This document shows, in pieces, positions 9,301-28,436 of a DNA stretch of 43,517 nt; position 1 is the first letter of the stretch; every line of letters starts with the position of its first letter. The stretch spans positions 1 to 43,517 of the forward strand of contig DATKAO010000052.1 of NCBI GenBank assembly GCA_035498015.1, given 5' to 3'. Both the position numbers and the translations under genes were made by a program. The DNA comes from Myxococcota bacterium (GTDB lineage: Bacteria; Myxococcota_A; UBA9160; SZUA-336). The notes beneath the pieces are model-generated. The model saw only the letters and a list, made by a program, of their open reading frames with translations, ran no database searches and was not told the origin of the DNA.

Positions 9301-10866
9301 ATGGCGGACGCGACTCGACCCCCGGACCTCTTGACCCTTCACGCGAAGCTCCAGCCCGACAAGCTGGCCGTGGTTCACGATCGCCCCGACGGCAAGATCG
9401 TGCGCTGGTCCTTCGCGGAGCTCGAGGCCGAGGCCAACCGGCTGGCGAACGGGCTGCTCGCGCTCGGGCTGCGGCCCGGCGAGAAGCTGGTCTGGTGCGG
9501 CCAGAACTCGCCCGGCGTGGTGCGCGTGGTGCACGCCGCGCGCAAGCTCGGCGTGGTCGCGGTGCCGCTGAACTACCGGCTCTCACCCGAAGAGGCGCAG
9601 TACGTGGTCGACAACTCGGACTCGGTGTTCGTGTATGTCGACGCCGAGTACGCGCCGCTGTTCCAGAAGATCCGCAGCGAGATCCCGAAGGTGCGCGAGA
9701 TCGTGGTGTACGACGGCGCCGCGCCCGCGGGCATGCGCAACGGCGACGCCCTGGTCGCGGCGGCCAGTGACTCCGAGCCGCAGCTGACTGCAGCCGGGAA
9801 CGCGGCCCAGACCATGATCTACACCTCGGGCACGACCGGGAAGCCCAAGGGGGCGGTGCGCGGCGCCGCGAACGCGGCGCAGAGCGGCGCGCTGCTCGGC
9901 ATGATCGGCTACCAGCCGGACGACGTCTATCTCACCACCGGCCCGCTCTATCACTCGGGGCCCGGCGGCTTCATGGGCGTGGCGCATGCGCTCGGCAACA
10001 CGGTCGTGTTGCAGAAGAAGTTCGACGCCGAGGACTGGCTGCGCCTGGTCGAGAAGTACCGGGTCAGCACCACCTTCTCGGCGCCCACGCCAGTGCGGCT
10101 GGTGTGCAACCTGCCTGCCGCCACCAAGGCGAAGTACGACAAGACCAGCATGCGCCGCTTCATCGCCAACGCCGCGCCCTGGTCGTTCGCGCTGAAGCAG
10201 ATGTATCTGGCCGACTTCCCGGACGACTCACTGTTCGAGATCTACGGCTCGACCGAGCTGGGCGTGAACACCGTGCTGCGGCCCGAGGACCAGCTGCGCA
10301 AGCCCGGCTCGTGCGGCAAGCCCGCGCCCATGGTCGAGATCAAGCTGTTCGACGACGACGGCAAGGAAGTGACCCAGCCGCGCGTGCCCGGTGAGCTCGC
10401 CGTGCGCAGCGTCGGCGTCTTCGACACCTACCACAAGGCGCAGGAGAAGTTCGACGAGGACCGCCGCGGTGACTTCCACACCGTGGGCGACGTCGCGTAT
10501 TTCGACGAGGAGGGGTACTACTACATCTGCGACCGCAAGAAGGACATGATCATCTCGGGTGGGGTCAACATCTATCCCGCCGAGATCGAGGCGGTCCTCG
10601 ACGCCCACCCGCGCGTGCTCGACGTCGCGGTGATCGGCATCCCCAACGAAGAGTGGGGCGAGGCCGTGCACGCGGTGATCGTGAGGCTGCCCGACGTGAT
10701 GCTCAGCGAGGAGGACATCCTCGTGTACGGCCGCGAGCACCTGGCGGGCTACAAGATCCCGCGCTCCGTCACCTTCGCCGACGAGATCCCGCGCAACGCC
10801 TCCGGGAAGATCCTGAAGAAGCTCCTGCGCGAGCCGTTCTGGCAGGGGCGCACGACGCGAGTCTAA
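9301..10866 (+). CDS. AMP-dependent acyl-CoA synthetase (ANL superfamily)
   Basis: Activates a carboxylic acid to an acyl-adenylate and then an acyl-CoA thioester. The 521-residue protein has the P-loop-like A3 motif YTSGTTGKPKGA (about residue 178), EIYGSTELG (A5), the hinge region with VGDVAYFDEEGYYYICDRKKDMIISGG (A7-A8) and the C-terminal catalytic lysine in RNASGKILKK. The substrate is probably a fatty or other hydrophobic acid; it cannot be specified. ATG 9301 is supported by AGGGAGA with 6-nt spacing. Its stop codon overlaps the stop of the convergent beta-helix gene. Confidence 0.93.
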   Translation: MADATRPPDLLTLHAKLQPDKLAVVHDRPDGKIVRWSFAELEAEANRLANGLLALGLRPGEKLVWCGQNSPGVVRVVHAARKLGVVAVPLNYRLSPEEAQYVVDNSDSVFVYVDAEYAPLFQKIRSEIPKVREIVVYDGAAPAGMRNGDALVAAASDSEPQLTAAGNAAQTMIYTSGTTGKPKGAVRGAANAAQSGALLGMIGYQPDDVYLTTGPLYHSGPGGFMGVAHALGNTVVLQKKFDAEDWLRLVEKYRVSTTFSAPTPVRLVCNLPAATKAKYDKTSMRRFIANAAPWSFALKQMYLADFPDDSLFEIYGSTELGVNTVLRPEDQLRKPGSCGKPAPMVEIKLFDDDGKEVTQPRVPGELAVRSVGVFDTYHKAQEKFDEDRRGDFHTVGDVAYFDEEGYYYICDRKKDMIISGGVNIYPAEIEAVLDAHPRVLDVAVIGIPNEEWGEAVHAVIVRLPDVMLSEEDILVYGREHLAGYKIPRSVTFADEIPRNASGKILKKLLREPFWQGRTTRV

Positions 10867-11894
10867 CGCAGTGGCTTGGGCGGGTGCTTCGGCTCGGTCT
10901 TCTTGAACGGGTCACGCACGACGTTCGAGTCACCGTCGACCTGGCACACGATGTCTGCGCCCCCGTTGCCGGGGCCGTCCGCCGAGCCCCAGTAGTTGCC
11001 GCGCGCGTCGAGCTCGTGGTGCGACGCGTTGTCGATCCCGCACGGGATGGCGGTCTTCACGCCGTTGCCCATGAGCGTCGACGTCGTGACTCGCCCGTCG
11101 CTCGTCCCGTCGAGGTAGACCCCGTACAGGCCGTTGCGGATCGCGACGTCGGACGCGAGCTCGAGCTGCGCCATGTCGGCGTAGAAGCCGCCCATGGCGT
11201 TCCCGATGGCCGAGCTGTTCTCGATCTTTGCGCTGCTGTTGACCACGAAGAAGCCGTGCTCTCCGTTGCTCTCGGCGAGGTTCCCCGAGGCCACCAGGCC
11301 GTCCGATCCGAGCTCGAAGCCCGAAATCTGGTTGCCGGTCGAGCGATTTCCGGTCACGACGGCGCCGTCGCCGTAGACCTGAAAGCCGGAGCCACCGTTG
11401 TCGGTGGCGACGTTCCCGAGGATCCGGGTGTGCTGGGCAAAGGTGACGGAGAGGCCTGCATCGAGGGAGTGACGCAGCGTGAAGCCGTTCTGCGGCCCGC
11501 CGATGGTCGTTCCGTCGGCGCCGGTACCGACCTGCAGCACCGCTCCCTCCGATTTGCCGGCATCGATGATGGTCACACCGGCGCCGTCGCGCGAACGCAG
11601 AGTGACGCGCCGCTGGATCGGGACCACGCAGAAGCAGCCCCCGATGGGCTGCGCGGGCTCCTCGCCCGGATCGTCGAAGTCACCATCTCCGTTCACGTCG
11701 CCGTAGACTCCGGGACCCACTTGGACGGTATCTCCCGGGGCGGCTTCGAAGAGCGCCCAGCTGATCGTGCGGCACGGCGCCGCGGAGCTGCCGCAGCCCG
11801 CGAAGTCCGAGCCGTTCACCCCGGTGTTGATGGTCTTGCCCGAAGCCGCGCTCGCAGCGACCAGCAGGGCAAGCGCGAGAACCCCGATCTGCAT
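10863..11894 (-). CDS. Secreted right-handed parallel beta-helix protein (copy A)
   Basis: A 343-residue exported protein with an N-terminal signal peptide (MQIGVLALALLVAASAASG). A DxAGCGxxxxPCRTI motif follows, typical of the entry coil of DUF1565/pectate-lyase-like beta-helices. An EF-hand-like loop DVNGDGDFDD comes next, then many short coils of the GFxxxxxxxxxxGN type, and finally the GNYWGS motif common at the C-terminus of NosD-like beta-helices. No catalytic residues for polysaccharide lysis are obvious, so an adhesive or carbohydrate-binding surface role is as likely as an enzyme. The start has a strong AAGGAGG ribosome site 4 nt upstream. It is a paralogue of the gene at 12429-13481, in the same orientation. 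Confidence 0.82.
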   Translation of the reverse strand: MQIGVLALALLVAASAASGKTINTGVNGSDFAGCGSSAAPCRTISWALFEAAPGDTVQVGPGVYGDVNGDGDFDDPGEEPAQPIGGCFCVVPIQRRVTLRSRDGAGVTIIDAGKSEGAVLQVGTGADGTTIGGPQNGFTLRHSLDAGLSVTFAQHTRILGNVATDNGGSGFQVYGDGAVVTGNRSTGNQISGFELGSDGLVASGNLAESNGEHGFFVVNSSAKIENSSAIGNAMGGFYADMAQLELASDVAIRNGLYGVYLDGTSDGRVTTSTLMGNGVKTAIPCGIDNASHHELDARGNYWGSADGPGNGGADIVCQVDGDSNVVRDPFKKTEPKHPPKPLR

Positions 11895-11910
11895 CTCGCC
11901 TCCTTCCGAC

Positions 11911-12345
11911 TCACGAGACGCGCTGGCCGTCGGGAGTGACTCTGCCCGCGATCTGGTCGGGCGTCGGCGCCTGGCCATAGACGCGCTCGTTGGTCATGAG
12001 ATCGTCGTCGTCGAAGTCGTACACCGCCCAGAGCCGCACCTCGAAGGGAGTGCCGGTCGTGCGCGGCGTGCCGCGCAGCCAGAACTCGATCTGCACGTGG
12101 GCGTCGTCCGGGTGAGTCAGCGCGATCAGCTCGTTGCGCTGGTCGGGCACGACCGCGCGGCCCTCGAGCCAGTAGCGCATCACGTCGTCGTGGCCGTCGA
12201 TCACCCGGCCATCGGGCAGCTCGTAGCGCGCATGACTGAACGTCTTCATGGTCCGGTCCCAGGCCTGGACGTTCTCGCTCTGCATGTGCTCGATCACGAG
12301 CGCCTCGCGCGCGGCGCGGCGTTCAGGGGTGAGTGATCGGGACAT
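11911..12345 (-). CDS. SnoaL-like/NTF2-fold protein
   Basis: The 144-residue protein has a helix-rich start and then alternating strands (DGRVIDGHDDVMRYW, HVQIEFWLRGTP, VRLWAVYDFDDDDLMTNERVY). This matches the SnoaL-like polyketide-cyclase/steroid-isomerase fold used by many small ligand-binding or isomerase proteins. The function is not known. ATG 12345 is preferred to the upstream GTG because a TAGCGT -10-like box lies 7 nt before it. It sits between two beta-helix paralogues and seems to interrupt that pair. Confidence 0.65.
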   Translation of the reverse strand: MSRSLTPERRAAREALVIEHMQSENVQAWDRTMKTFSHARYELPDGRVIDGHDDVMRYWLEGRAVVPDQRNELIALTHPDDAHVQIEFWLRGTPRTTGTPFEVRLWAVYDFDDDDLMTNERVYGQAPTPDQIAGRVTPDGQRVS

Positions 12346-12428: not shown

Positions 12429-13481
12429 TCAGCGTAGGGGCTTCAGTGAGATCTTCAGCTCGGTCTTCTTGAATGGGGTGACGGAGACACTCGAGCCCAA
12501 GCCGTCGGAGCAAGCAGCGTCGCCCGGGTCCGCGCCGGGTCCGAGCGAGGTGCCCCAGTAGTTGCCCGTGGCGTCGATCTGGTGATTCGTCAGGTTCTCC
12601 AGGCCGCAGTTCGTCTTGTTCACCAGCGCGTTCCCGACGATCGTGGAGCCGTCGACCCGGCCGTCGGAGCTGGCGTCGTCGTACTCGATTCCGTAGGAGC
12701 CGTTTCCGGAAGCGACGACCGAGTGCAGATCCATCAGGGCGTTCGAGGCTTCGAAGCCGTTCACGGCGTTGCCGATCGATGCGCTCTTCTCGATCTCGGC
12801 TCCGCCATTGATCACGATGAACCCCGTGTGCGCGTTCTTCTCCGCCGAGTCACCCGAGGCTACGACGTTCGCGGCGTCGAGCTCGAACCCGTCGAAGGTG
12901 TTGGCGAGCGCGCGGTTGCCCGTGAGCGTGGCGTTGGCTCCGAAGACGTCGAAGCCGTTCACGTTCTGCTCTGCGAGGTTTCCGATGATGTGCGTGTGGC
13001 TAGCTTCCGGCAGGACCTCGGCTCCCGCACTGTGACCACGCCGGAGCGTGAAGCCGTTCTGGGCTCCGCCGAGCGTCGCTCCGGCCGCGCCGCCGATGAG
13101 TCGAACGACGATCTCGGCCGTTCCCCCGCCATCGATCGCGGTCATGGCTGCACCGTCGCGAGAGCGGAGCGTGATCCGCTTGTCGACGCGCACGACACAC
13201 AGGCAGCTTCCTTCGCCGAGCTCTGCCGGCTCTTCGCCGGCGCTCGTGAAGTCACCGTTGCCGTCGATGTCGCCGTAGAGCCCCGGGCCGACCAGCACGG
13301 TGTCTCCTGCCGCCGCCTCGGAGATGCCCATCGCGATCGTGCGACATGGGGACGTCGGGCTGCCACAGCCCGCCGAGTCCACGCCGTGCATGCTCACGTT
13401 CAGCGTCTTTCCCGAGGCCGCGCCAGCCGCGACCGCCACCAGGACCCCCGCGATCCTCGCGATCCGCATGATACGCAGCAT
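12429..13481 (-). CDS. Secreted right-handed parallel beta-helix protein (copy B)
   Basis: A 350-residue paralogue of the 10863-11894 product with the same order of features. These are a signal peptide (ARIAGVLVAVAAGAASG), DSAGCGSPTSPCRTI, a calcium-loop-like DIDGNGDFTSAG, CLCVVRVDKRITLRSRDGA, repeated short beta-helix coils (GFDVF, GFELD, GFIVI, GFEAS), TGNYWGT and the shared ending PFKKTE-SLKPLR. Two ATG codons are possible (13481 and 13469); neither has a clear ribosome site. Base composition is less extreme than in neighbouring genes, so acquisition by transfer is possible. The role is unknown and is probably at the cell surface or outside the cell. Confidence 0.82.
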   Translation of the reverse strand: MLRIMRIARIAGVLVAVAAGAASGKTLNVSMHGVDSAGCGSPTSPCRTIAMGISEAAAGDTVLVGPGLYGDIDGNGDFTSAGEEPAELGEGSCLCVVRVDKRITLRSRDGAAMTAIDGGGTAEIVVRLIGGAAGATLGGAQNGFTLRRGHSAGAEVLPEASHTHIIGNLAEQNVNGFDVFGANATLTGNRALANTFDGFELDAANVVASGDSAEKNAHTGFIVINGGAEIEKSASIGNAVNGFEASNALMDLHSVVASGNGSYGIEYDDASSDGRVDGSTIVGNALVNKTNCGLENLTNHQIDATGNYWGTSLGPGADPGDAACSDGLGSSVSVTPFKKTELKISLKPLR

Positions 13482-24314: not shown

Positions 24315-25199
24315 GTGACCCCACGCTTGATCACCCGCTCGCTCGCAGTCTCCCTGGCTGCCGCCGCTGCGCTCGCCGCCAGCGCGCGCGCCGACACGTC
24401 ACTGTCCGGTGTATGCCCGGACGGCAGCTTCTTCGTGGTCCAGAGCCGCGAGTCGGTGCCGTGCGCGAACCCGCACTTCGCCGATCCCTCCGAGCTGCCG
24501 CCGGTCCGGCCGTATCTCCTGCCGCGCCCGTACACCTGGTACGTCGACCAGGAGGCGCGCAGCGCGAACAACCCCTACAACCTGCTCGAGACCGCGCAGA
24601 AGATCCGCGCGGCGCGCGCCGGGATCGCAGGCGCGGCGCAGGCGCCCGATGGCAGCGCGAACGCCCCCCAGGCCGCCTCCGGGCCCGCGCACAACCCCGC
24701 ACCCGCTGAAGCTCAGTCCAACCGCGCTCCCGCGGCGGCCCCGCTCGTGTCACTCGCCGACGACGACCTGCGCGACCTGGTGCGGCTGATCGCCCTGCGC
24801 CAGGAGGCCGCGCCCGCCACGCTCGACCTCGAGGACGTGCACGGCAAGCGCACGCTGAAGATCGAGATCGCCTACTCGGCGGCCTTCGAGGCTTACGCGC
24901 TCCAGACACTCTCCCACGAGCCGGCCGCGAGCCACGTGATCGTGTGGAGCGCGCAGGCGCAGCGCGACGTGGACTTCCGCGCGAACTTCTTCGTGGTCCA
25001 GAACGGCCGCACCTACCGGCCCGACCCGCAGACCCCGGCCGAGGCCGGCTTCCTGCTGGGCGCCCCCGGCACCCTGCCCACGGGCGAGATGGCCGTCGGC
25101 TATCTCGTGGTGCCCGCGAGCTTCGACCCCAGGGCCCCGCTCGAGGTGTTCTGGAACGACCGCAGCGTGGAAGCCACGCTCGCCGCGCCTGCGCCCTGA
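24315..25199 (+). CDS. Secreted hypothetical protein
   Basis: Not recognised. The 294 residues begin with a signal peptide (SLAVSLAAAAALAASARA). A short Cys-containing segment follows (GVCPDGSFFVV, SVPCANPHF) that could form one disulfide, then PYLLPRPYTWYVDQEA. A low-complexity Ala/Pro linker (about residues 97-145) leads to a C-terminal beta-rich domain with strands FRANFFVVQNGRTYRPD and LVVPASFDPRAPLEVFWND. The fold of the last domain may be immunoglobulin-like; that is a guess. The gene has its own -10 box and stands alone between scpB and the convergent CAP-domain gene. Confidence 0.75.
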   Translation: MTPRLITRSLAVSLAAAAALAASARADTSLSGVCPDGSFFVVQSRESVPCANPHFADPSELPPVRPYLLPRPYTWYVDQEARSANNPYNLLETAQKIRAARAGIAGAAQAPDGSANAPQAASGPAHNPAPAEAQSNRAPAAAPLVSLADDDLRDLVRLIALRQEAAPATLDLEDVHGKRTLKIEIAYSAAFEAYALQTLSHEPAASHVIVWSAQAQRDVDFRANFFVVQNGRTYRPDPQTPAEAGFLLGAPGTLPTGEMAVGYLVVPASFDPRAPLEVFWNDRSVEATLAAPAP

Positions 25200-25200
25200 G

Positions 25201-25683
25201 TCAGTTGTAGGTCGCGTACAGCTCGACGACGAGGGTCTGGCCGTCGGGCCCTTCGACCACGCCCACGCCCGCGGTGTTGAACGCGGGGTTGAGCAAATTC
25301 TCGCGGTGGTCGTGCGAGCGCATCCACTCCTCGACGATCGCGTCGAGCCGGTCGCCGCTCACGGTCGACGCGCCGATGTTCTCGGCCAGCAGGCGGAAGC
25401 CGGTGATGCCGGCGCCAGTCACCCGGTTCAGGGCGTTGTGACCCTCCGGACTCTCGTGCGCGAAGTAGCCGCGGCGCGCCATGTCCTCGGCGTGCGCGCG
25501 CGCCACCTGCGCGAGCTCCTGCGAGCCGCGCAGGGGGATCAGGTGATGCTCCGCTCGCACGCGGTTCACGCGCGCGAACAGCTCCGCCTCCGGGCCCGCC
25601 AGCGCCTCGAGCGGGGCGGTCCCGAGCCAGACCGCGGTCGTGAACGCCGCGGCGAATCCGAACAGGCCGCGCCAGCTGGTCAC
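25201..25683 (-). CDS. CAP/SCP-domain secreted protein
   Basis: The 160-residue protein has a hydrophobic N-terminus (LFGFAAAFTTAVW) and a CAP domain: FARVNRVRAEHHLIPL, LAQVARAHAEDMARRGYFAHESPEG, ENIG, and HRENLLNPAFNTAGVGVVEGPDG. The conserved CAP cavity residues (His of AHAEDM, Glu of AENIG, His of HDHRENLL) are present. Bacterial CAP proteins are extracellular, some bind calcium or lipids, and most lack a proven role. GTG 25683 overlaps the stop codon of the calcium-loop lipoprotein gene upstream, so the two are probably made together. Confidence 0.82.
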   Translation of the reverse strand: MTSWRGLFGFAAAFTTAVWLGTAPLEALAGPEAELFARVNRVRAEHHLIPLRGSQELAQVARAHAEDMARRGYFAHESPEGHNALNRVTGAGITGFRLLAENIGASTVSGDRLDAIVEEWMRSHDHRENLLNPAFNTAGVGVVEGPDGQTLVVELYATYN

Positions 25684-27020
25684 TTCGCGGGGCCCTCGTT
25701 CTCCCACTTCTCGAAGGCCTCGGCCGAGCTGGCCTCGCGGCTCACGAGCTTGCCGTTCTGGTAGTGAGACACCACGTCGGGCGTGCCGTCGAAGTCGAGG
25801 TCTTCACGTTTCTCGACCAGCTGGCCGTCGCGGTAGAGCGACACGACGTCGGGCCGGCCGTCGCCGTTCCGGTCCTCCTCTTCGCGCTCGATCTTGCCGT
25901 GCGAGTAGATCGTGACCTCGTCGCGGAAGCCGTCGCCGTTCTTGTCGATCTCGGTGCGCAGCAGCTCGTCGCCGTTGTAGAAGCTCCAGGTGTCGGCCTG
26001 GCCATCGCCGTTGGAGTCGGTGCGGCGCCGCACGAGCTTGCCGTCCTCGTACACGCTCGTGGTCTCCATCACACCGTCGCCGTTCAGGTCCTCGTCGGCC
26101 GATACCAGCCGGCCCTTCGCGTCGTAGTGGCGGATGCGGTCGACGCGGCCGTCGAAGTCGTCGTCGAGCGCGTCGGTCACCGGGCGGCCGTTGGCGGTGT
26201 AGATCCACTCGTCGGGCCGCCCGTCGCCGTTGCGGTCGAGTGTGTCCGGCGCGCCGAGGCCGGGCTGGTTCGGCAGGAGCGGCCGGTTCGCGGGGGCGGT
26301 ATCCGGCGTCGTCGAAGGCGAGGGCGCGGGGCTGGTGCTCGGGTTGCGCTTGCCCAGTGACCGCTCGAGCGCCGCCAGCTCGTCGCCGATCACCGGGTGC
26401 GAGGCGCCGGGCGCAGCAGACACTGCCGGCGTCGCGCTCTGGGCGCGCTGCTCGAGCTCCTTGCGCAGCGCCTCGTTCTCGCGCACGAGCCGGTCGCGCT
26501 CGACGTCGTCGGCGGTGTGCACGGTGCGCGCCGCGGCCTGCGGCTTGGGCTCCATCTGCTCCTTCTTGGCCTCGTCGGCTTTCTCGCCGAGTGTCTGGCC
26601 GAGGAAGAAGAACGGGTACCCGAACAGCGGCCCGATCGGCAGGAACTCCTTCTTCTCCTGGGTCGACGACGCCTCCTCGGTGGTCTGCCCGATCAGCGTC
26701 AGGTTCGAGCCGCCGGGCGCGCCCGCGGTCGAGCCCGAGCTCGAGCCCGAGGCGGAGCCGCCGGCCGGCACGCCAGTCCCGGAGGAGCTGCTGGAGCCCG
26801 AGCTCGTACCGGGCGCCGAAGCGCTGCTCGACGAGGTCGAGCCGGCGGGGCCGATCGCCGAGCCGGGCATCGCCGGCGCGGACTCACCCGGGTACATCAC
26901 GGTGGCACCCATGCCGGTGATGATCTCGGGCCGCTGCTCCTGGGCACCGTTGCGATACCCGATGCCGCAGCCGCACAGGACGAGGGAGACGAGCACGAGG
27001 AATGGGAGTCTCTGCACCAT
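25680..27020 (-). CDS. Lipoprotein with seven 24-residue calcium-loop repeats
   Basis: A 446-residue envelope protein. The signal peptide ends in a lipobox-like LCGC (lipid-modified Cys18 preferred). Next are a Ser/Gly/Pro-rich stretch (about residues 60-104), a hydrophobic patch PLFGYPFFFLGQTLG, a coiled-coil-like segment (VERDRLVRENEALRKELEQ, about 173-191) and a Pro/Ser linker. From residue 262 there are seven repeats spaced 24-25 residues, each with DxNGDGxxD (twice DxDFDG) followed by a YxxGxL hairpin. The Asp/Asn loops look like EF-hand or thrombospondin-type calcium sites. ATG 27020 has GGAAGG 8 nt upstream. It is coupled to the CAP-domain gene. The function is unknown; a calcium-dependent surface scaffold is an inference. 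Confidence 0.8.
   Translation of the reverse strand: MVQRLPFLVLVSLVLCGCGIGYRNGAQEQRPEIITGMGATVMYPGESAPAMPGSAIGPAGSTSSSSASAPGTSSGSSSSSGTGVPAGGSASGSSSGSTAGAPGGSNLTLIGQTTEEASSTQEKKEFLPIGPLFGYPFFFLGQTLGEKADEAKKEQMEPKPQAAARTVHTADDVERDRLVRENEALRKELEQRAQSATPAVSAAPGASHPVIGDELAALERSLGKRNPSTSPAPSPSTTPDTAPANRPLLPNQPGLGAPDTLDRNGDGRPDEWIYTANGRPVTDALDDDFDGRVDRIRHYDAKGRLVSADEDLNGDGVMETTSVYEDGKLVRRRTDSNGDGQADTWSFYNGDELLRTEIDKNGDGFRDEVTIYSHGKIEREEEDRNGDGRPDVVSLYRDGQLVEKREDLDFDGTPDVVSHYQNGKLVSREASSAEAFEKWENEGPAK
25734..26237 (-). repeat. Seven tandem 72-nt coding repeats
   Basis: Repeat units start at codons 262, 286, 311, 335, 359, 383 and 407 of the lipoprotein, each beginning with an Asp-rich calcium-type loop. 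Spacing is 24 codons except once (25). DNA identity between units is partial, so this is an old array rather than a recent expansion. Confidence 0.8.
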
Positions 27021-27433: not shown

Positions 27434-28366
27434 TCATGCGTTTTCGCGAAGCCTGCGCTCCAGCCACGCGAGCAGGTCGCGGCTGACCTCGTCGCGATTT
27501 TTCTCGTTCAACATCTCGTGCCGGCCCTCCGGCCAGATGCGCACGTCGACGTGCTCGAGACCGGCGGCGCGCAGCTCGGCGGCGAGCTTCTCGACACCCG
27601 CGCGCCCGCCGACGGGATCGAGCTCGCCGGCGACGAGCAGGATCGGGAGCGCGCGCGGAATCTTCGCGAGCACGTCCTTGCGCTGGTAGCGCGCGAGCCC
27701 GCGCGCCATGTCGCCGAAGCTGCGCGCGGAGAGCACGAAGCCGCAGCGCGGATCCGCCACGTAGCGGTCCACCTCGTCGGGGTCGCGCGACAGCCAGTCG
27801 AAGGGCGTGCGCGCGGGCTCGAAGGCCTGGTTGAAGCGGCCGAACAAGAGCTTCTGGAGCACCGGGCTGCGCGCGCGCTCGCCCAGCCGCAGACACTCCG
27901 CGCGCGCCACCGCGCGCAACGCAAAGCCGAGCGGGCCCATGCTCGCCGCCGAGCCCGACAGCACCGCCGCGCGCAGCCCGACGCCGTGGCGAGTCAGGTA
28001 GTCGGCCGCGATGAACGATCCCATGCTGTGGCCGAGCAGCGCGTAGGGCAACCCCGAGTGACTCGCCGCGGCGCGCTCGCGCACCGTGTGCACGTCGCCG
28101 ACCACCTTCTCCCAGCCATCGGCGTCGGCGAAGTGACCCAGCAGCGCTGCGCTCTCGGCGGTCTCTCCATGGCCCCGGCAGTCGGCGGCGTAGACGGCCC
28201 AGCCCGCGGCCGTGGCCTCGCGCGCGAAGCGCTCGTAGCGCGCGGCGTGCTCGCCCATGCCGTGCACGATCTGCAGCACCGCGCGCGGCGCGCCGTCGGG
28301 CAGGAACGCGCGCACCGACAGCTCGACGCCGTCGGCGGAGCGCAGCCGGAAGGGCGCGGCCCTCAA
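27434..28366 (-). CDS. Alpha/beta hydrolase, monoacylglycerol-lipase-like
   Basis: A cytosolic serine hydrolase of the Hydrolase_4 type. The 310-residue protein has the oxyanion-region motif IVHGMGEHAARYERFA, an ADCRGHGET loop, the nucleophile elbow LLGHSMGSF, an Asp in VAGELDPVGG and the His in EGRHEMLNE, completing the triad. Such enzymes cleave monoacylglycerols or lysophospholipids; the true substrate is not known. The start is TTG 28366, five bases downstream of two tandem palindromic repeats that separate it from hemF in the same orientation. Confidence 0.88.
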   Translation of the reverse strand: MRAAPFRLRSADGVELSVRAFLPDGAPRAVLQIVHGMGEHAARYERFAREATAAGWAVYAADCRGHGETAESAALLGHFADADGWEKVVGDVHTVRERAAASHSGLPYALLGHSMGSFIAADYLTRHGVGLRAAVLSGSAASMGPLGFALRAVARAECLRLGERARSPVLQKLLFGRFNQAFEPARTPFDWLSRDPDEVDRYVADPRCGFVLSARSFGDMARGLARYQRKDVLAKIPRALPILLVAGELDPVGGRAGVEKLAAELRAAGLEHVDVRIWPEGRHEMLNEKNRDEVSRDLLAWLERRLRENA

Positions 28367-28370
28367 TCTG

Positions 28371-28403
28371 ATGGTCGCATGGGCACCCTACCCATGCTCC
28401 GGC
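28371..28403 (-). repeat. 33-bp palindromic intergenic repeat, copy 1
   Basis: Read on the minus strand: CCGGAGC, then the inverted repeat GCATGGG-TAGGGTG-CCCATGC, then GACCAT. It is directly abutted by copy 2, which differs only at the terminal base. Related to the element at 40355-40386. Confidence 0.9.
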
Positions 28404-28436
28404 ATGGTCGCATGGGCACCCTACCCATGCTCCGGT
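28404..28436 (-). repeat. 33-bp palindromic intergenic repeat, copy 2 (contains the hemF stop)
   Basis: Tandem duplicate of copy 1. The TAG in its loop (28421-28423, minus strand) is the stop codon of hemF, so the last residues of HemF (PEHG) are encoded by the repeat. Confidence 0.9.

Follow-up and report, generated by a model that had tools for sequence, protein, structure and literature searches.

CAP-domain proteins occur, to our knowledge, in very many organisms, and the role of the bacterial ones is mostly open. We know of no partner lipoprotein for the YkwD/PF00188 type of CAP protein, of no CAP neighbour for the Leptospira adhesin Lsa25.6, and of neither a calcium ribbon nor a third gene for DalA (RSP_1200) of Rhodobacter sphaeroides. 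OspA, considered below for its fold, is a surface lipoprotein. RSP1200 was annotated as YkwD in an earlier screen (Table 1 of PMC5442454), and the DalA paper describes a septal lipoprotein of the outer membrane whose binding to peptidoglycan is non-covalent and with which FtsZ, Pal and predicted L,D-transpeptidases co-precipitate; the word CAP does not occur in that paper (PMC10470522). Lsa25.6 binds laminin and plasminogen (PMC7662565), and loops of the Dx[DN]xDG type bind calcium in many folds (PMC3123361).

Here we describe a locus in a stretch of 43,517 nucleotides analysed as a whole (hereafter, the window), in which a lipoprotein gene with seven loops of this type overlaps the gene of a CAP-domain protein. 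Across the bacterial class to which the window belongs, these genes stay together and go missing together, and they therefore probably encode one unstudied part of the cell envelope.

The lipoprotein, its repeat units and the overlapping CAP gene

The two genes and their features are as follows.

25680-27020, minus strand: gene for the seven-unit calcium-loop lipoprotein, 446 aa, ATG start; 43 of the 90 class genomes have an orthologue
26967-26969, minus strand: codon of Cys18, the predicted lipidation site; LCGC motif, Cys invariant in six of six family orthologues
26697-26870, minus strand: Ser/Gly-rich part of the stalk, residues 51-108; 21 Ser and 14 Gly
26436-26501, minus strand: short heptad-like helix by sequence reading, residues ~174-195; R177, E181, N182 and L189 invariant in six of six
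26166-26237, minus strand: unit 1, residues 262-285 (units 1 to 7 from the unit finder and motif positions)
26091-26165, minus strand: unit 2, residues 286-310
26019-26090, minus strand: unit 3, residues 311-334
25947-26018, minus strand: unit 4, residues 335-358
25875-25946, minus strand: unit 5, residues 359-382
25803-25874, minus strand: unit 6, residues 383-406
25731-25802, minus strand: unit 7, residues 407-430
25680-25683, minus strand: GTGA in the sequence, where the CAP start codon overlaps the lipoprotein stop by four bases
25201-25683, minus strand: gene for the CAP-domain protein (P0002), probably exported, 160 aa, GTG start; PF00188 at 79.2 bits against a cutoff of 21.1

Third-position GC is strong in both frames, as in real genes (0.94 in the lipoprotein frame and 0.94 in the CAP frame). 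The original prediction of a lipoprotein with seven DxNxDG units proved real: Dx[DN]xDG motifs start at residues 262, 286, 311, 335, 359, 383 and 407, at a spacing of 24-25 residues, and 10,000 shuffles of residues 255-446 yielded a mean of 0.046 motifs and a maximum of 3, so that a chance origin is rejected by the complete lack of shuffles with seven. Among the anchor, stalk and coiled coil attributed to this protein, the first two stood. Cys18 is preceded by a hydrophobic segment (L-C-G-C), the same succession of hydrophobic segment and lipobox Cys that marks bacterial lipoproteins is present in all six family orthologues, and the Ser/Gly stretch is there as described; the coiled coil amounts to a single short heptad-like helix. 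A motif search found the lipobox in 33 of the 43 orthologues in the class, one of them doubtful, the others being partly cut by contig ends. The stalk, measured from the predicted lipid-bearing Cys to unit 1, is 205-306 residues long in the orthologues (readable in 33 of 43; the doubtful G025 is excluded) and consists to about half to two thirds of S, G, P, Q, A or T (33 of 43 readable), with a GYPF motif that is conserved within the window's family. The lipoprotein passed no Pfam or NCBIfam cutoff, the best Pfam scores being 21.5 of 27 bits for DUF6802 and 18.4 of 26.9 for FG-GAP_3, and a PDB sequence search returned one chance match only (E 0.33).

The number of units is nearly constant, with the unit finder counting seven in 38 of the 43 orthologues, six in three and eight in two. 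Among the six-unit cases, one unit was missed in G089 (a 47-residue gap), G022 is cut by the contig start and G018 seemingly has a true six, and in both eight-unit cases the extra match is weak and far upstream. Spacing between successive units is likewise near-constant across orthologues (24, 25-26, 24, 24, 24 and 24-25 residues), and the array therefore looks old rather than expanding. An AlphaFold2 model of residues 255-446, built on an alignment to which translations of named loci added 61 rows, has two strands per loop at a mean pLDDT of 93.5; the predicted fold, a single-layer sheet to which each unit contributes one hairpin, resembles OspA and MORN proteins. VIA-align placed OspA best against this modelled ribbon (Z 11.6, 163 aligned, rmsd 4.6), and gave Z 8.8 for MORN1 (167 aligned, rmsd 5.2), Z values that, in repeat proteins, may mean no more than a common arrangement. 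In a viral structure library, the best named matches to the ribbon model were YwqK/MORN repeat proteins (best E 7.6e-11).

The Asp/Asn ligands on which the calcium-loop claim turned are conserved between orthologues: over 300 unit matches, D1 is present in 99%, D or N at position 3 in 90%, D5 in 94%, G6 in 96% and D9 in 89%. Judged from this motif, the Dx[DN]xDGxxD loops probably bind calcium, one ion each. Seven conserved loops might also suit an envelope calcium buffer or sensor, with the CAP protein as its output, an account that we consider decidedly improbable since the module contains no signalling domain and calcium in such loops is commonly structural as well as regulatory (PMC3123361).

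The same ribbon could instead be displayed on the cell surface. In that case, the lipoprotein would be flipped to the outer face and would present ribbon and CAP protein outside as an adhesin or receptor complex, much as first suggested for this pair. The long, flexible stalk and OspA as fold neighbour are consistent with such display, as is a weak match of repeat residues 264-370 to the Lsa25.6 adhesin model (NF050087). However, that match reaches 32.5 bits where the cutoff is 150, and membership in the Lsa25.6 family is rejected accordingly; moreover, the near-constant unit number is unlike that of variable adhesin arrays, and DalA, the closest bacterial relative found that has been studied well, has its site of action at peptidoglycan and not at the surface. 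A surface complex is thus possible, if rather unlikely, and the best supported reading is the envelope module developed below.

The CAP gene was as announced, with a PF00188 score above the cutoff and the GTGA overlap with the lipoprotein stop. In all 44 CAP orthologues, H76, E101, H126, W120 and S123 are identical, and we take the columns of H76, E101 and H126 to be the conserved His/Glu/His of the CAP cavity. The N terminus carries a short conserved hydrophobic segment, often MPRTxxQAxGFLLGFWLAL and in many orthologues followed by an AxA-like site (by eye), for which reason the protein is probably exported. P0002 is devoid of cysteine and therefore is not itself a lipoprotein here; a lipobox-like start was seen in one relative (G018). 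A sequence search with P0002, up to E 0.001, gave a single solved structure, PDB 4IFA (E 2.9e-15).

Pairing across genomes and a third co-inherited gene

Within the window's family (11 genomes), six genomes encode a full-length relative of the lipoprotein, and a CAP relative adjoins it in the same six. A profile built from these six lipoproteins matched 50 of the 90 genomes of the class at E 1e-30, of which 43 were taken as having orthologues; the remaining seven (G005, G019, G049, G061, G063, G078 and G088), which match only or mainly in the repeat units, were excluded. In 43 of 43 orthologous loci, the lipoprotein gene is directly followed by a CAP gene in the same orientation, a pairing much stronger than that originally proposed. 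The CAP domain match starts 81 to 189 nt past the lipoprotein stop, and a possible CAP start codon lies -4 to +10 nt from that stop in 36 of the 43 pairs (for the G016 pair, whose profile match start was taken differently in that scan, there was no near start codon). Fusion of the two genes is ruled out, as in all 43 the lipoprotein frame stops short of the CAP domain.

CAP orthologues are found in 44 of the 90 class genomes, that is, in the 43 with pairs and in G030, where the contig begins inside the lipoprotein gene and the 194 bases that remain of the first frame code for its last two units. The weaker CAP matches, from 80 to 53 bits, are those of G017, G016, G081 and G028. By contrast with the 43, none of the seven excluded genomes has a CAP orthologue in the profile search of the 90-genome set, and no CAP gene was seen at the local loci of G005, G019, G061 and G088. 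A Fisher test on the class counts gives p ~1e-26, to be read with the fact that the genomes are related by descent and are not 90 independent trials; most are incomplete metagenome-assembled genomes (MAGs), and the 44 occurrences do not equal 44 independent events. In a phylum-wide sample of 282 genomes, seven from outside the class match the lipoprotein at E 1e-30 (110 to 117 bits), mainly in the repeat region, and the two such loci checked (L114 and L116) have no CAP gene within 1.5 kb. Two of the relatives bear names; both are MAGs, under the labels Myxococcales bacterium DT_69 and Deltaproteobacteria bacterium Meg19_02_Bin_157. The class is perhaps UBA9160.

The system includes at least one further co-inherited gene, missed in the original prediction, which converges with the CAP gene and ends one base short of its stop codon.

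24315-25199, plus strand: third gene, for a protein of 294 aa with an export-type N terminus and the GVCPDGSFFVVQ motif; present in 43 of 44 genomes with the pair

In the class, the third gene occurs in 46 of 90 genomes, namely in all with the pair except G017 and, at contig ends, in G001, G038 and G040; in the phylum sample it occurs in 28 of 282, all within the class and one of them a contig-end fragment (G019). These fragments at contig ends suggest that some apparent absences are assembly gaps. Its place relative to the pair varies: it is downstream and opposite within 1.5 kb in 27 genomes, downstream on the same strand in 5, opposite at 1.5-6 kb in 4, opposite beyond 6 kb in 2, upstream in 2, on another contig in 3 and absent in 1. 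That this gene is kept although it has been moved and inverted speaks for a shared role. The third protein matched no Pfam or NCBIfam family above cutoff; its structure model is poor (pLDDT 53.5, three sequences), and the Foldseek list obtained from that model, mostly MHC chains with a best E of 2.5e-3, was discarded as unusable.

Loci without the module and other loop-bearing proteins

The genes that flank the module are conserved across the class, as seen in the 31 genomes with long enough stretches; we call them glnD-, xerC-, scpA-, scpB- and hemF-like, names that are our own reading of the sequences. Empty sites were sought in 12 of the 46 pair-less genomes with the window's scpB-like protein, and the nine loci with a match were read. 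At eight of the nine (G005, G088, G087, G061, G043, G050, G078 and G082), two to four of these flanking genes are present without the module: scpB- and scpA-like genes are accompanied by xerC-, glnD- or hemF-like genes as far as the contig reaches, and the stretch read contains no match to the CAP, lipoprotein or third-gene profiles. In G005, the hemF-like gene follows scpB within at most 800 bases, where in the window the module lies in between. The ninth locus, in G006, a member of the same genus as G005, holds a reduced pair at the same place.

L057, 3585-4139 and 4136-4621: shrunken lipoprotein and CAP-like frame of G006

The short lipoprotein has approximately four loops (72 bits), and the CAP-like frame overlaps it by GTGA, as in the window. 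This frame has a weak match to the CAP orthologues (13 bits; E 2e-4, 44 sequences in the set) and is without the His/Glu signature over the part that aligns; the locus may be either a joint decay or a minimal version of the pair.

Adjacency alone could be explained by gene order, with the CAP protein and the lipoprotein working separately in the envelope: the flanks are conserved across the class, and the close spacing may mean co-transcription only. Yet gene order does not explain why the two genes are jointly absent between persisting flanks at eight of nine loci and jointly reduced in G006, nor why the third gene is retained although moved or inverted, and we judge this account unlikely. 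The joint absence with recognisable flanks present therefore supports a functional unit.

Loop units of the same kind also occur elsewhere. Giant exported paralogues, roughly 1000-1500 aa long and with 21-33 motifs of this loop type (L065:189-3620, L064:4107-7622, L063:2-3061 and others), are present in 9 of the 11 family genomes, some of which are without the pair; in many cases a second gene, with 6-8 loop motifs, comes after them, and the giant-paralogue loci checked gave no CAP profile match. In G061, whose family is mostly without the module, a 394-residue frame (L139:2724-3908) carries seven loop motifs but is not accompanied by a CAP gene. The loop units hence do not require CAP, as this protein and the giant paralogues demonstrate. 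The window's own genome encodes a second seven-loop lipoprotein-like protein on contig C149 (L055:6709-8274), whose gene adjoins, in convergent orientation, that of what we take to be a von Willebrand A-type protein. In the window itself, two similar exported proteins are encoded close together on the minus strand (10863-11978 and 12429-13481), each with an Asp-rich loop of the DxNGDGDF or DGNGDF type near its N terminus, and a short direct repeat (10 residues twice in one frame) lies at ~28363-28420, between hydrolase-like and hemF-like genes.

Proposed role and comparison with known systems

The reading that we favour, albeit tentatively, is that the two genes form a co-inherited, translationally close pair within an envelope module, usually with the third gene, as a two-chain counterpart of DalA. 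The lipoprotein would be anchored through its N-terminal lipid, and its stalk of ~240 residues, rich in Ser, Gly, Pro and Ala, would carry a single-layer beta sheet of seven hairpins. Each hairpin joint would be a Dx[DN]xDGxxD loop, probably with one calcium ion, and calcium is therefore proposed to stiffen the ribbon. The ribbon may be the scaffold to which partners bind, the likeliest of them being the CAP protein from the overlapping gene, which would be exported, keeps the CAP signature residues and would probably act at peptidoglycan. An outer-membrane anchor and a cell-wall-binding module would thus be split over two chains, with the calcium ribbon holding both together. A more far-reaching version, which we regard as doubtful, is a class-specific, calcium-stiffened machine of three proteins (lipoprotein, CAP and VCPDGS protein) that, again as a two-chain counterpart of DalA, would tie the outer membrane to peptidoglycan or position wall enzymes; none of the module's own proteins was recognised as a wall enzyme.

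Each part of the module is of a known kind; a search of open-licence PMC papers turned up no description of the whole module, nor one of the pair. Within one bacterial class, this three-gene envelope module is present in approximately half of the genomes examined. A partner whose gene adjoins that of CAP in all cases observed, and is missing together with it, offers a direct handle on the function of bacterial CAP proteins, and the repeat type, with its calcium loop and hairpin, is a candidate for an open, calcium-stapled sheet.

Several known folds share single traits with the lipoprotein. Its loop motif and the later Asp are common to EF-hands, integrin-type propellers and thrombospondin type 3 repeats. 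EF-hands were rejected, as the AlphaFold2 model has the loops flanked by strands rather than helices, and so was a beta-propeller of the FG-GAP/integrin type (PF13517, 18.4 against 26.9 bits), with two strands per loop and no propeller blades. The predicted succession of hairpins in one open single-layer sheet resembles MORN/YwqK proteins and OspA, a likeness that may be one of arrangement only; unlike in those proteins, calcium-type loops join the hairpins here, and a Pfam search extended to E 1 matched no MORN family.

On the side of the CAP protein, the domain is shared with YkwD and other PF00188 proteins, and membership in YkwD itself was rejected (TIGR02909, 85 bits against 171). The likeness to DalA is that of an envelope protein, annotated as YkwD, with a link to a lipid anchor. 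P0002 matches the DalA model NF052539 weakly, at 46 bits where the equivalog cutoff is 200, and is not assigned to that family; DalA carries the lipid anchor on its own chain, whereas P0002 has no cysteine to bear one. Since DalA is anchored and binds peptidoglycan, and its model matches the CAP protein weakly, we propose that what DalA combines in one chain, the anchor and the wall-binding part, is here divided between two, the lipoprotein and the CAP protein.
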